A DNA stretch of 8,420 nt from contig JALOPK010000134.1 of assembly GCA_025453925.1 (NCBI GenBank), forward strand, positions 1-8,420, in the 5' to 3' direction. Position numbers and translations under genes: made by a program. Of this stretch, positions 264 to 8,188 are shown in pieces. The stretch is from Candidatus Eiseniibacteriota bacterium (GTDB lineage: Bacteria > JAFGKV01). The notes under the pieces are model-generated. The model was given only the letters and a program-made list of their open reading frames with translations. It did no database searches and was not told the DNA's origin. Positions within the stretch are counted from its first letter, which is position 1. The number at the start of each line of letters is the position of its first letter.

Positions 264-1847
264 ATGATATCGTTGAGCACCAGAATCTCCGCGGTGACCG
301 TGTTCCCTGATCGCGCGCGGGTCCTGCGCACGGGAACGCTTCACGTCGAGGTGGGCCGGCAGGTGCTGCGGGTGGGCCCGCTCCCGCTGGCGATGGACCC
401 GGAATCCGTGCGCCTGAGCGCCCACGGTTCGGCGACATGCACGCTGCACGGGGTGGAAGTACGAAAGGAAACCTACACGGAATCCCCGGCGGAAGAGGTG
501 CGTGAGCTCGAGCGTGAGATCGAATTGCTCGAGACTCGGGTCGCCGAGGTAGAGGCGCAGCTTGCCCTTGCAAAGGAGGAGCGGGCGGCGCTGACTGCCG
601 TTTTTCAGAGTTCCGAAACCCTGGCGCGGGGGATTGCATTCGGGAAGCTGGAGCCTGATGCGCACCTCAATCTGGTCGAACGCCTGTGCGCGAGATGTGC
701 CGAGCTTGACGCGCACCAGCGGGAGTTGGGCATCACGCGACGTGAGCTTGAGAGGGCTCTCCAGAAGCCCCGGCGGGAGATCGAACGTCTGCAGAGCGCG
801 GCGACCGTGGAGCGGTATCTCGCTGTGGTCGAGGTCGAGGCTGCATGCGCGGGAGATCTCGTCGTGGAGTTGTCGTCGTTGGTGCGCGGGGCCTCATGGT
901 CGGCGCTGTATGACTTTCGGATCACAGAGGGCGACGAGCCAATGCTGGGAGTGGGATACCTGGGTCAGGTAGTCCAGGAGACCGGCGAATCGTGGGACGG
1001 AATTGAGCTGGTGCTCTCCACCGCCCGCCCGTCACGCTCGGCGGCGCTCCCGGAACTGAAGCCATGGTACGTCGCACCACGGCGCCCGAGGATTGAGGAG
1101 ATGGACAGGGCGGCCAAGGCGCGTCCACAGGCGTTGGCCGCAGGATCCGAACGCACCACCGGCGCCGAACCGGAATCCGCGGCTGGCGAGTCGAACACTG
1201 CCGTGGCGGCCGTGGCCACAGTGGAGACGGCGGGCAGTTCGGTGACCTATCGGATCCCGGGCATGGTCACCATCCCGCCAGACGGGTCTTCCCACAAGGT
1301 GATGGTGGCCCGCTTCGACCTGCATCCGCAGCTTGACTACATCGCGGTCCCCAGGCTGGCGGAGGAGGTAGTTCGGCGTGCACGGGTGACCAATGAGAGT
1401 CCATACGTCTTCCTCGCGGGATCGGCGAATCTGTTCTGCGGTGATGACTTCATCGGGCGGGCATCCATGGACCATGTGCCGCAAGGCGGGAAGATCGAGC
1501 TCTTCCTGGGGGTGTGCGATCAGATCCTGGTGACGCGCGAGCTGAGCAGGCGGGACGTTGACCGCACGTTCATCGGCAACCGCAGGGCATTGTCTATGGG
1601 CTACAGGATGAAGGTTGAGAACCTCCTGGATTCCCCCGTGCTGGTGGTACTCCGGGATCAGCTTCCGGTGCCACGGGATGAGGAGATAAAGGTGAAGCTG
1701 GAAGCCGTCGACCCGCAGCCGACACGCCACGATGACCTCGGCCTTCTCACCTGGGACCTCTCGATCCCCGGGCGTAGCGCAAGGGTTGTTACGTGGGAGT
1801 TCGCCGTCGAGCATCCCCGCCAGATGGAGGTCGTCGGGCTCGACTGA
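264..1847 (+). CDS. MuiA family protein (DUF4140/DUF4139)
   Basis: A 527-residue protein of the mucoidy-inhibitor A (MuiA) family. The N-terminal DUF4140 region (about 5-105) starts with the family hallmark TRISAVTVFPDRARVLRTG. It is followed by two charged coiled-coil stretches (about 76-112 and 140-178). The C-terminal DUF4139 region (about 205-520) includes ASWSALYDFRI (210-220), the conserved GESWDGIELVLSTARP (241-256), a low-complexity Ala/Glu/Thr linker (about 283-322), and a beta-rich tail with SPYVFLAGSANLF and VENLLDSPVLVVLRDQLPV. No signal peptide or membrane segment is visible, so it is probably cytoplasmic. The name comes from suppression of mucoid colony form; the biochemical role of the family is unknown. 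Length and domain order are normal for the family. The downstream transporter is same-strand but 357 bases away, so co-transcription is uncertain. Confidence 0.9.
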   Translation: MISLSTRISAVTVFPDRARVLRTGTLHVEVGRQVLRVGPLPLAMDPESVRLSAHGSATCTLHGVEVRKETYTESPAEEVRELEREIELLETRVAEVEAQLALAKEERAALTAVFQSSETLARGIAFGKLEPDAHLNLVERLCARCAELDAHQRELGITRRELERALQKPRREIERLQSAATVERYLAVVEVEAACAGDLVVELSSLVRGASWSALYDFRITEGDEPMLGVGYLGQVVQETGESWDGIELVLSTARPSRSAALPELKPWYVAPRRPRIEEMDRAAKARPQALAAGSERTTGAEPESAAGESNTAVAAVATVETAGSSVTYRIPGMVTIPPDGSSHKVMVARFDLHPQLDYIAVPRLAEEVVRRARVTNESPYVFLAGSANLFCGDDFIGRASMDHVPQGGKIELFLGVCDQILVTRELSRRDVDRTFIGNRRALSMGYRMKVENLLDSPVLVVLRDQLPVPRDEEIKVKLEAVDPQPTRHDDLGLLTWDLSIPGRSARVVTWEFAVEHPRQMEVVGLD

Positions 1848-2204: not shown

Positions 2205-3419
2205 ATGGGCACCGTTCTTACCGCAAGCATCATCCTGCTGACCCTGGCGGGGGTCGCCGTAGGGCGCTTCCCCGGGCTGCGAATGAACCGTGCGACGATC
2301 GCCCTCGTGGGGGCGGTGGCGCTGGTGCTCATCGGCGCTCTCTCCCTGGAACAGGCGTATGCCGCTCTGGATCTCAACACCCTGGTGTTGTTGTTCGCGA
2401 TGATGGTACTGAACGTCAACCTGAGCATGTGCGGGTTCTTCCAGCTCCTTGCCACGCGAATCCTCCGATGGGCACGAACCCCTCGCCAGCTTCTTGCGCT
2501 TGTCATTATGGCCTCCGGTGTGCTCTCCGCTCTTTTCCTCAACGACACGGTCGTGCTCATGTTCACGCCGCTCGTCGTGGAGGTCGCCGTTCAGGTCGGC
2601 AGGAGTCCCATCCCGTACCTGATGGCCCTGGCGACGGCGGCGAACATCGGTTCCACCGCCACCATAATCGGAAACCCTCAGAATATGCTCATCGGCATCT
2701 CATCGGGGATCCCCTTCGCACGGTTCACGGGCTTCCTTTTTCCGGTCGCGCTGGCGGGCCTGGGGCTGGCCTGGTCGGTAGTGTTCATGGTCTACCGCTC
2801 GGAGTTCCGGTCCGAGCGGTTTCCGGCCGGCCTCAATCTCCCTGTGCGGGTGTACCGCCCGCTGCTCCGCAAGAGTCTGATCGCGTCCGCAATCATGCTC
2901 ATTGCGCTGCTGGCGGGGATGCCGATCCCTCTGGCGGCTCTTTCCGCGGCGTCTATCCTGCTCGTGACTCGTCGCCTCAAGCCCGAACGGGTCTTTCGGG
3001 AGATCGACTGGTCGCTCCTCGTATTCTTCTCGGGGCTGTTTGTCGTGACGGGCGCACTGGAGACCAGTGGTCTGAGCAGGGGCATTTTCGGGGTGCTTGG
3101 CCACCTCGGGCACGGCGTCTGGGGTCTCACGGCCGGCTCGGCCGCGCTCAGCAACCTGATCTCCAATGTCCCGGCCGTTCTCATGTTTCGTCCGGTGGTG
3201 CCGGGTCTTCCGGATGTCGAGCGGTCATGGCTGGTCCTGGCTATGGCCACCACGCTGGCCGGCAATCTCACGCTCCTGGGTTCGGTGGCGAACCTCATCG
3301 TTGCGGAATCGGCCAGACGGCACGGCGTGAGATTGAGGTTCCTGGAGTACCTGAAAGCCGGTGTGCCCATCACGATCGTGACGCTCGCCTGGGGAGCCCT
3401 TTGGCTCAGCACGAGGTAA
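2205..3419 (+). CDS. SLC13/ArsB/NhaD-like anion transporter
   Basis: A 404-residue integral membrane protein with about 11 hydrophobic segments from residue 4 to the C-terminus. Signatures of the ion transporter superfamily (CitMHS/ArsB/NhaD/DASS) occur as two pseudo-repeated halves. The first half has FLNDTVVLMFTPLV (111-124) and ATAANIGSTATIIGNPQN (143-160); the second has LSNLISNVPAVLMF (315-328) and LAGNLTLLGSVANLIVAE (351-368). The GNPQN and SN-x-x-SNVP motifs sit in the re-entrant hairpins and helix breaks that bind ion and substrate in structurally known members. It is nearest in style to the short YbiR/ArsB-like anion transporters. The substrate (dicarboxylate, arsenite, sulfate, or cation/proton exchange) cannot be read from sequence. 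No arsR or arsC is adjacent, so arsenic efflux is unsupported. The neighbours, MuiA upstream and convergent metK, give no hint of substrate. Confidence 0.87.
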   Translation: MGTVLTASIILLTLAGVAVGRFPGLRMNRATIALVGAVALVLIGALSLEQAYAALDLNTLVLLFAMMVLNVNLSMCGFFQLLATRILRWARTPRQLLALVIMASGVLSALFLNDTVVLMFTPLVVEVAVQVGRSPIPYLMALATAANIGSTATIIGNPQNMLIGISSGIPFARFTGFLFPVALAGLGLAWSVVFMVYRSEFRSERFPAGLNLPVRVYRPLLRKSLIASAIMLIALLAGMPIPLAALSAASILLVTRRLKPERVFREIDWSLLVFFSGLFVVTGALETSGLSRGIFGVLGHLGHGVWGLTAGSAALSNLISNVPAVLMFRPVVPGLPDVERSWLVLAMATTLAGNLTLLGSVANLIVAESARRHGVRLRFLEYLKAGVPITIVTLAWGALWLSTR

Positions 3420-3640: not shown

Positions 3641-3833
3641 TATCTCCCCGGGCGGCAGCCTCCACGGCCAGGCGAGGAGTGTCTCGGCACGATTCTCGCC
3701 ATTTACCCATCAGGACGCTGCAGGTGTATTCATCACCACGTGTCTGCGACATCGACGACGCTCTGAGACGCGTAGCCACCGCTCAGTCGGCACACGAGCG
3801 GCCGGGATGTAGACACCACCAACCCGGCTGCCA

Positions 3834-3862
3834 TTGGGCATATAGGACTCGTCCAATATAGG
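3834..3862 (+). promoter_or_regulatory. possible sigma70-like promoter inside the double palindrome
   Basis: TTGGGC (3834-3839) and TATAGG (3857-3862) are separated by 17 bases, a plausible -35/-10 pair in otherwise GC-rich DNA. A transcript would start near 3869 and run towards the strong hairpin at 4024-4065. The match is partial in both hexamers, so this is a candidate only. Confidence 0.3.
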
Positions 3863-3879
3863 ATATGTCCTATATGCCC
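3836..3879. promoter_or_regulatory. operator-like nested double palindrome
   Basis: GGGCATATAGGAC (3836-3848) and GTCCTATATGCCC (3867-3879) are perfect 13-base inverted copies. Within them the octamer ATATAGGA occurs twice directly (3840-3847 and 3856-3863) and once inverted as TCCTATAT (3868-3875). This builds two overlapping palindromes: a near-perfect one at 3840-3859 (ATATAGGAC, TC, GTCCAATAT) and a perfect one at 3856-3875 (ATATAGGA, TATG, TCCTATAT), 16 bases apart. The layout is that of tandem sites for a dimeric regulator. The stretch is a marked AT-rich island. The bound protein is unknown. Confidence 0.6.
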
Positions 3880-4023
3880 TGGCGTTCCCTGAAGTCCATT
3901 GGTGAGCGCGGGGTCCGACTCCACTGCTCTCGCTGCCGCCTCGATGAGGCTTCCATGCACAGGCATGTCACGAGGGTCAATCCCCGCCGCGCGGAGTGTG
4001 CGCACCCGGATGGCGTGACGCAC

Positions 4024-4065
4024 GAAGCCCCCACCCGGGTCCAGGGCCCGGGCGGGGGCTTCTTT
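4024..4065 (+). terminator. strong GC-rich hairpin terminator between convergent units
   Basis: GAAGCCCCC (4024-4032) pairs with GGGGGCTTC (4054-4062). After one A/C mismatch, CCCGGG (4034-4039) pairs with CCCGGG (4047-4052) around a 7-base loop. On the plus strand the stem runs into TTCTTT, giving a short U-tract. On the minus strand the hairpin begins 18 bases after the metK stop but is followed by CGTGCGTC, with no U-tract. It probably ends transcription arriving on the plus strand and may also serve metK. Confidence 0.75.
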
Positions 4066-4079
4066 CCACGCGAGACGGG

Positions 4080-5270
4080 CTATGCCAGTCTCTTCAGCTC
4101 CTCAGCTTTGTCCGTCCGCTCCCAGGTGAACTCCGGCAGGGACCGACCGAAGTGACCGTAGGATGCGGTCTTACGGTAGATCGGCCTTCGCAGTTGCAGG
4201 TGGTCGATCATGCCCTTTGGCGTGAGGGGGAAGACCTCCCGCACCATGGCGGTGAGCTTGGTGTCGGGCACCACGCCCGTTCCGGCCGTGTCGATCATGA
4301 TGGACACAGGGTCCGCCACGCCGATGGCGTAGGCCAGCTGAACCAGCGCCTCCCGGGCCAGACCGGCGGCGACCAGGTTCTTTGCCACATACCGGGCCAT
4401 GTAGGTTGCGGAGCGGTCGACCTTGGTCGGGTCCTTTCCGGAGAATGCGCCGCCGCCGTGGGGCGCCCAGCCGCCATACGTGTCGACGATGATCTTCCGG
4501 CCAGTCACGCCCGTGTCGGATTGCGGACCACCGACCACGAACTTCCCGGTCTCGTTCACGAAGAACTTGGTCTTGGCGTCGAGGAGATCCTTGGGCAGGA
4601 CGGCCAGAGCGACATTCTGGACGATCTCATCCTTCGCGGCCTTAGTGATGAAAGCGTTGTTGCGGGCGGGGTCGAGGATCTCCTCGGTGTGTTGGGCGGC
4701 GATCACCACCGTGTCGATACGGACGGGTTTGCCGTCCCGGTACTCAACGGTCACCTGGGATTTGCCATCCGGCCCGAGATACGGGAGGATGTTGGCCCGG
4801 CGCACCTCGGCGAGGCGCAGCGTGAGCCGGTGGGCCAGCGTAATGGGCATGGGCATGAGCTCGGGCGTCTCGCTGCACGCGTACCCGACCATGAGGCCCT
4901 GATCACCGGCGCCGCCGACCACCACGCCCTGAGCGATGTCCGGCGACTGGCGGCCGATGGCATTGAGGATGCCGCACGTCGAGTAGTTGAACCCATACTT
5001 GACGTCGGTGTAGCCGATATCGCGGATGAGATCGCGCACCAGGCTATTGACGTCGACCCATGCCTCCGTCGTGATCTCACCTCCGACGATCACCAGCCCG
5101 ACGGTGATGAACGACTCGCACGCCACGCGGCTCAGGCCGACGTGGCCCTTTTCGATGTCGTCCTGGAGCACCGCATCGAGCACGGCGTCGGAGATCTGGT
5201 CGCACACCTTATCGGGGTGGCCTTCGGTAACGGATTCGGATGTGAACACGCAGTCCCTGGTTGAAACCAT
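4080..5270 (-). CDS. metK: S-adenosylmethionine synthetase (methionine adenosyltransferase)
   Basis: A full-length 396-residue cytoplasmic enzyme that makes S-adenosylmethionine from methionine and ATP, releasing phosphate and diphosphate (EC 2.5.1.6). It shows all hallmarks: [20 protein letters not shown] (8-27), with the ATP/metal-binding GHPDK at 17-21; [12 protein letters not shown] (62-73); the GAGDQG signature (120-125); [11 protein letters not shown] (257-267); and the phosphate-binding glycine-rich GGGAFSGKD (272-280). The C-terminus [15 protein letters not shown] is typical. The ATG at 5270 follows an excellent Shine-Dalgarno sequence. The gene is separated from the upstream isomerase by 303 bases and so probably has its own promoter. 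The long leader invites SAM-dependent regulation, but no known riboswitch class is evident. All key residues are present. Confidence 0.98.
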
Positions 5271-8095: not shown

Positions 8096-8188
8096 GGAGA
8101 GATGCGAGAGCTGGTTTAATCGGCGCGATTGGAAATCGCGTGAGCCCCGAAAGGGGCTCCGAGGGTTCGAATCCCTCTCTCTCCGCCA
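8096..8188 (+). tRNA. tRNA-Ser(GGA)
   Basis: A complete 93-base class II tRNA. Acceptor stem GGAGAGA (8096-8102) pairs with TCTCTCC (8178-8184), followed by discriminator G and encoded CCA (8186-8188). The anticodon arm is CGCGA (8124-8128), loop TTGGAAA, TCGCG (8136-8140), giving anticodon GGA at 8131-8133, which reads UCC and UCU. The long variable arm typical of serine tRNA is GAGCCCC-GAAA-GGGGCTC. The T arm is GAGGG-TTCGAAT-CCCTC (8161-8177). The D arm has the short CGA/TCG stem with an enlarged loop containing GG. It is flanked by its own promoter and terminator, so it is a single-gene unit. Confidence 0.97.

Follow-up and report, generated by a model that had tools for sequence, protein, structure and literature searches.

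Does the near-palindrome between metK and the convergently transcribed gene for a CitMHS-type transporter serve as an operator for a local regulator, is it a small mobile repeat, or does it belong to something larger? The window analysed here is a stretch of 8,420 nucleotides from the host MAG (G000; 3.9 Mb, 502 contigs, 82% complete). Re-reading of the window reproduced the features on which the original prediction was built, namely the convergent gap (Table 1), 13-base perfect arms (GGGCATATAGGAC at 3836-3848 and GTCCTATATGCCC at 3867-3879), two direct copies of ATATAGGA (3840-3847 and 3856-3863) with one inverted copy, TCCTATAT (3868-3875), and CCATTGG at 3831-3837 and 3896-3902. A perfect 13-bp inverted repeat with a spacer of at most 40 occurs once in the window and three times in total in 200 Markov-resampled windows, and the remaining doubt about a chance origin is removed because the element recurs genome-wide.

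Table 1. Features of the 8,420-nucleotide window, in order of position.
Feature	Position	Strand	Remarks
DUF4140/DUF4139 protein	264-1847		function-unknown family; upstream of the transporter
CitMHS-type transporter, left neighbour	2205-3419	+	orthologue in the sister species without element downstream
Reported near-palindrome	3836-3879	.	family element plus copy-specific GGG/CCC tips, arms extended to 13 bp
38-bp family element CATATAGGACTCGTCCAATATAGGATATGTCCTATATG	3839-3876	+	34-bp core at 3841-3874; 1 mismatch to consensus
Left palindrome TATAGGAC-TC-GTCCAATA	3841-3858	.	dyad between 3849 and 3850; predicted one-dimer site
Right palindrome TATAGGAT-AT-GTCCTATA	3857-3874	.	dyad between 3865 and 3866, 16 bp from left dyad; predicted second-dimer site
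GC-rich 19-nt inverted repeat	4024-4062	-	just downstream of the metK stop
metK (S-adenosylmethionine synthetase), right neighbour	4080-5270	-	orthologue in the sister species without element downstream
tRNA-Ser (GGA)	8096-8188	+	

The recurring unit is 38 bp long, CATATAGGAC-NN-GTCC-WATATAGGAC-NN-GTCCTATATG, and consists of two GGACNNGTCC palindromes 16 bp apart; alignment of the copies in the host genome gives CATATAGGAC-NN-GTCC-W-ATATAGGAC-NN-GTCCTATATG without a shared flank. With up to three mismatches to the 34-mer, ∼38 double sites were found in the host genome and ∼25 in a sister species of the same genus (G001, a draft 'Candidatus Fermentibacteria' MAG of 340 contigs); the same search returned none in a third genome of the family (G002) and no matches with reversed-pattern controls. 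With relaxed searches and single palindromes included, the set under study grew to 44 places in the host genome and 30 in the sister species. In a scan of GTDB contigs, which may have left out the window's own genome, the motif was confined to a single MAG, deposited under the name Candidatus Fermentibacteria (JAFGKV), with the same sequences as G001. Viral contigs (IMG/VR) contained no motif match, an Rfam search gave no hit, and in the literature searched neither the exact element strings nor a paper joining Fermentibacteria with palindromic was found. The copies occur singly, spaced 9 to 55 kb apart on contigs that carry two or more, and an assembly artefact was rejected, the distances of sites to contig ends being not different from uniform. 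The window element belongs to a family of ∼45 dispersed sites that is restricted to one genus, with the motif known from two species only and the co-variation of motif and binder sampled within one genus. The GGG/CCC tips that lengthen the arms are private to the window copy, the family consensus ending at C...G (3839 and 3876), and in the right palindrome of this copy GGAT stands in place of the consensus GGAC.

The original prediction likened the layout to tandem dimer sites of a local repressor or activator, while noting that no regulator gene and no obvious target gene adjoin it. The local part was not supported. An operator for the transporter or metK was rejected, as the orthologues of both genes in the sister species have different neighbours and no site, and the family, with ∼44 copies that lie mostly off promoters and have no common pathway, is genome-wide. 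The GC-rich inverted repeat downstream of metK could possibly be its terminator, which would put the element outside the metK transcript; it obtained no score in a terminator scan. The transporter orthologue in the sister species is, as in the window, directly preceded by a coding gene.

The sites lie between genes and mostly not at promoters. Their contexts rest on fetched loci, on which a purpose-built hexamer-based gene finder was trained, and overlap with a predicted gene was seen for 2 of 74 copies in genomes that are 87% coding. In the host genome, 14 of 31 copies lie in convergent gaps, compared with 5.4 expected by length (p=3e-4), and in the sister species 9 of 24 do so (4.3 expected, p=0.02). 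In codirectional gaps, 17 of 22 copies are closer to the stop than to the start. Sites are rarer near starts, a few others besides the pair described below lying <160 bp from a start, and some copies occupy divergent gaps. No theme or pathway shared among the site-neighbouring genes was found. The odds that the sites have a genome-wide role away from promoters appear evenly balanced, and placement in convergent and 3' gaps would by itself also be expected of a tolerated repeat.

Such a repeat would be a REP-like dispersed palindrome, short and non-autonomous, spread by a palindrome-recognising enzyme and tolerated in convergent and 3' gaps. The family does consist of short palindromes repeated tens of times between genes, and it resembles GTAG/CGTC-tagged REP elements, which are 20-40 bp long, palindromic and intergenic with a convergent and 3' preference (PMC3733652). 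The hairpin potential is strong, most positions differ between the two species, and Y1 transposases are present in all three genomes. Copy number and placement thus fit the small mobile palindromic repeat that the original prediction offered as its other option, but the marks of mobility are absent. The copies carry no terminal GTAG or CGTC tag, no conserved flank and no linked RAYT, and no motif was found around the Y1_Tnp genes of the host genome and the sister species. Among 69 copies, flanking direct repeats, CCATTGG included, are not in excess, so that no target duplication is apparent. In 0.82 Mb of fetched sequence, 18 copies match the 26 core positions with 0-5 mismatches and all other windows have at least 7, so that no class of decaying copies was seen there. 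Together with a symmetric, position-specific constraint of the kind expected of a protein site and with conservation at shared positions, these features make a REP-like origin rather unlikely.

Six site positions are common to both species. At these, 155 of 168 specified bases agree (92%) compared with 13 of 24 free bases, and the intergenic flanks are drifting, aligning poorly and with many gaps; the six came from a comparison of site lists, which says nothing about the rate at which syntenic gaps lose a site. In a less biased sample the syntenic gap L029 kept its site, and orthologous flanks in places of altered gene order were without a site except in one case (L030). Most site positions are not common to both species because gene order around the sites changed, and the window copy is of this kind. 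The original prediction had named many scattered copies as the sign of a repeat, and conservation amid drifting flanks as the sign of an operator. The genome search returned the former (∼44 places) and the shared positions the latter, and because both outcomes came true the choice between operator and repeat was too narrow.

Each unit of the element is a TATAGGAC-NN-GTCCTATA palindrome, and two of them overlap with their dyads 16 bp, or ∼1.5 helical turns, apart. The GGAC, GTCC and TATA positions are near-invariant and the NN nearly free, while flanks beyond C...G carry almost no information. Base use is mirror-symmetric inside each palindrome at positions 9/10 (in the host genome A.62, G.22, T.09, C.08 at position 9 and T.54, C.29, A.09, G.08 at position 10) and likewise at 8/11, and copies with a single palindrome exist. 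Mirror symmetry and single-unit copies are what a dimeric DNA-binding protein would impose. The tandem-dimer part of the original prediction therefore stands, resting on the two spaced palindromes, the symmetric preferences, the free central NN and the single-palindrome copies. The element is very probably a tandem-dimer protein site kept by selection. The central hexamer is mostly the asymmetric AATATA in the host genome (22/39) and mostly the symmetric TATATA in the sister species (14/30), possibly because the binder, or the contact between dimers, differs between the species. A replication-polar site was rejected, the orientation of the asymmetric AATATA core in the host genome showing no bias with GC skew.

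The same inverted layout could instead act at the RNA level. Once transcribed, it would fold into a hexaloop hairpin that shields or terminates 3' ends, or it would work in both directions as a terminator or roadblock where genes converge. Predicted hairpins are very stable (z −4 to −8) and the copies have a 3' bias. In addition, positions 9 and 26 of the 34-mer, the outer N of both palindromes, covary as complementary bases in both species (excess pairing, p=.007 and.035), for which independent dimers give no explanation. However, the neighbouring pair N10:N25 shows no significant pairing, and the other pairs are almost invariant. A longer hairpin or RNA stem was rejected, since sequence beyond the motif does not pair and the flanks never lengthen the stem. 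Single-palindrome copies are unable to form the hairpin, no T-run is present, copies occur in divergent gaps and at a median of ∼140 bp past the stop codon, and protein dimers account better for the half-site symmetry. An RNA element is accordingly a quite improbable explanation for the family.

For a protein-bound site, the question becomes which protein would bind. When sites were ranked by distance to the nearest start, just one credible gene had a site immediately upstream of its start in both species. It encodes a protein with PadR and Vir_act_alpha_C domains (G000:C333 and G001:C276), and the site lies ∼20 bp before the start codon and within ∼26 bp of it in both species. The orthologues, from among five PadR genes found in the host genome and three in the sister species, are 74% identical, and the closest solved relative is AphA (PDB 1yg2, E=6e-24). 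In the site-free G002 no close PadR orthologue was found, the best relative being 32% identical. The natural reading of the site before this gene is an autoregulatory operator, at which the PadR protein would bind its own promoter site, and because the site is in that position the PadR protein is the first to test. The link rests on one gene, the matching presence or absence of motif and protein spans three genomes only, and a site at this one gene does not prove binding of PadR to the whole set. The most likely binder is nevertheless a winged-helix PadR protein of the AphA type, a tentative assignment that we would hold at rather less than even odds. Studied PadR operators (LmrR, bcPadR1 and AphA) are likewise inverted repeats at the regulator's own promoter, and one LmrR operator can take two dimers (PMC3506622, PMC5428041). 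The element does not fit the consensus ATGT-N8-ACAT of studied PadR proteins (PMC3506622), showing ATAG instead at −8 to −5, and the PadR proteins described control one or a few loci (PMC3506622, PMC5428041) in contrast to the ∼45 mostly non-promoter sites found here.

The family might then be nothing more than conventional transcription factor operators, probably of PadR, with a regulon and with many sites that are weakly functional or decoys. In favour of this, the site at the PadR gene sits in both species where a classical operator would, a few other sites lie <160 bp from a start, and tandem palindromes are usual for cooperative repressors. Against it, sites are scarce close to starts, convergent gaps hold more of them than expected, and their neighbours have no shared function. 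The motif also holds ∼60 bits, a value biased upward by the choice of copies by match, where ∼16 bits would be enough to mark 44 places in 3.9 Mb. We regard a conventional regulon as unlikely, slightly more so than a REP-like repeat.

We propose instead, with a probability of roughly 0.45, that the ∼45 sites are selected tandem-dimer sites for one protein, with PadR the likeliest binder, and that they mark or organise the whole chromosome. Each site would hold two dimers of a single sequence-specific protein side by side, and the bound sites would serve the chromosome at large, in nucleoid occlusion, domain marking or segregation, with the adjacent genes not regulated and with a mode like that of SlmA, Noc or MatP. 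As in such systems, the conserved palindromes of the family number in the tens, are dispersed and share no regulon. In E. coli, the chromosome-organising protein MatP reads dispersed short palindromes, although matS is a single 13-bp site and is confined to the Ter domain. A chromosome-wide role, architectural or in the cell cycle, is favoured by analogy because tandem-dimer palindromes singly dispersed outside promoters have the layout of SlmA sites and come close to that of Noc sites. SlmA, the TetR-family nucleoid occlusion factor of E. coli, binds 24-52 dispersed palindromic sites (SBS) as a dimer of dimers, with a function not tied to neighbouring genes (PMC4726725). The present sites differ in that their sequence is unrelated, each has two separate palindromes, the candidate binder is PadR rather than TetR, and nothing in the family points to FtsZ control.

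Noc of B. subtilis binds ∼70 dispersed 14-bp palindromes (NBS; PMC4726725), and dispersed palindromes read by a ParB paralogue are thus a known arrangement (PMC4726725) that a parS or Noc-type site would fit. The element differs from NBS in sequence and length, however, and one HTH_ParB protein was found in the host genome and one in the sister species; in both cases a perfect canonical parS, TGTTTCACGTGAAACA, is adjacent and the element is not nearby. No second ParB or Noc paralogue was found in either assembly. As far as the assemblies go, a ParB-family binder is largely refuted, and its probability is close to negligible. That a PadR-type one-component regulator has turned into a genome-wide chromosome marker with ∼50 tandem-dimer sites, a system unrelated to Noc, SlmA and MatP, is a more specific claim than chromosome-wide marking and one that we consider unlikely as it stands. 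Site systems that mark the chromosome have been described in few model bacteria. A strong motif, kept between species and off promoters in an uncultured lineage, provides an exact bait sequence and a candidate protein, which makes the function of a dispersed palindrome family directly testable rather than something to be written off as a repeat.

The sites were also considered as rearrangement hot spots. This was rejected: synteny is often lost at gaps with a site, but site-free convergent gaps show the same (6/7). In one case the flanking genes of two separate sites in the host genome (L032 and L050) are adjacent, without a site, in the sister species (L260, G001:C147), and a remnant of the 3' end of the first gene precedes the second gene in the host genome. 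One pair of host-genome sites maps to one gap of the sister species, but the breakpoints are not coincident with the site on both sides. Around one pair of shared sites, L020:28-824 and L093:88-878, the DNA of the two species is 89% identical over 797 bp, with ∼200 bp near 99%, an identity that exceeds that elsewhere between the two genomes and that may reflect recent exchange, strong constraint or binning carry-over.
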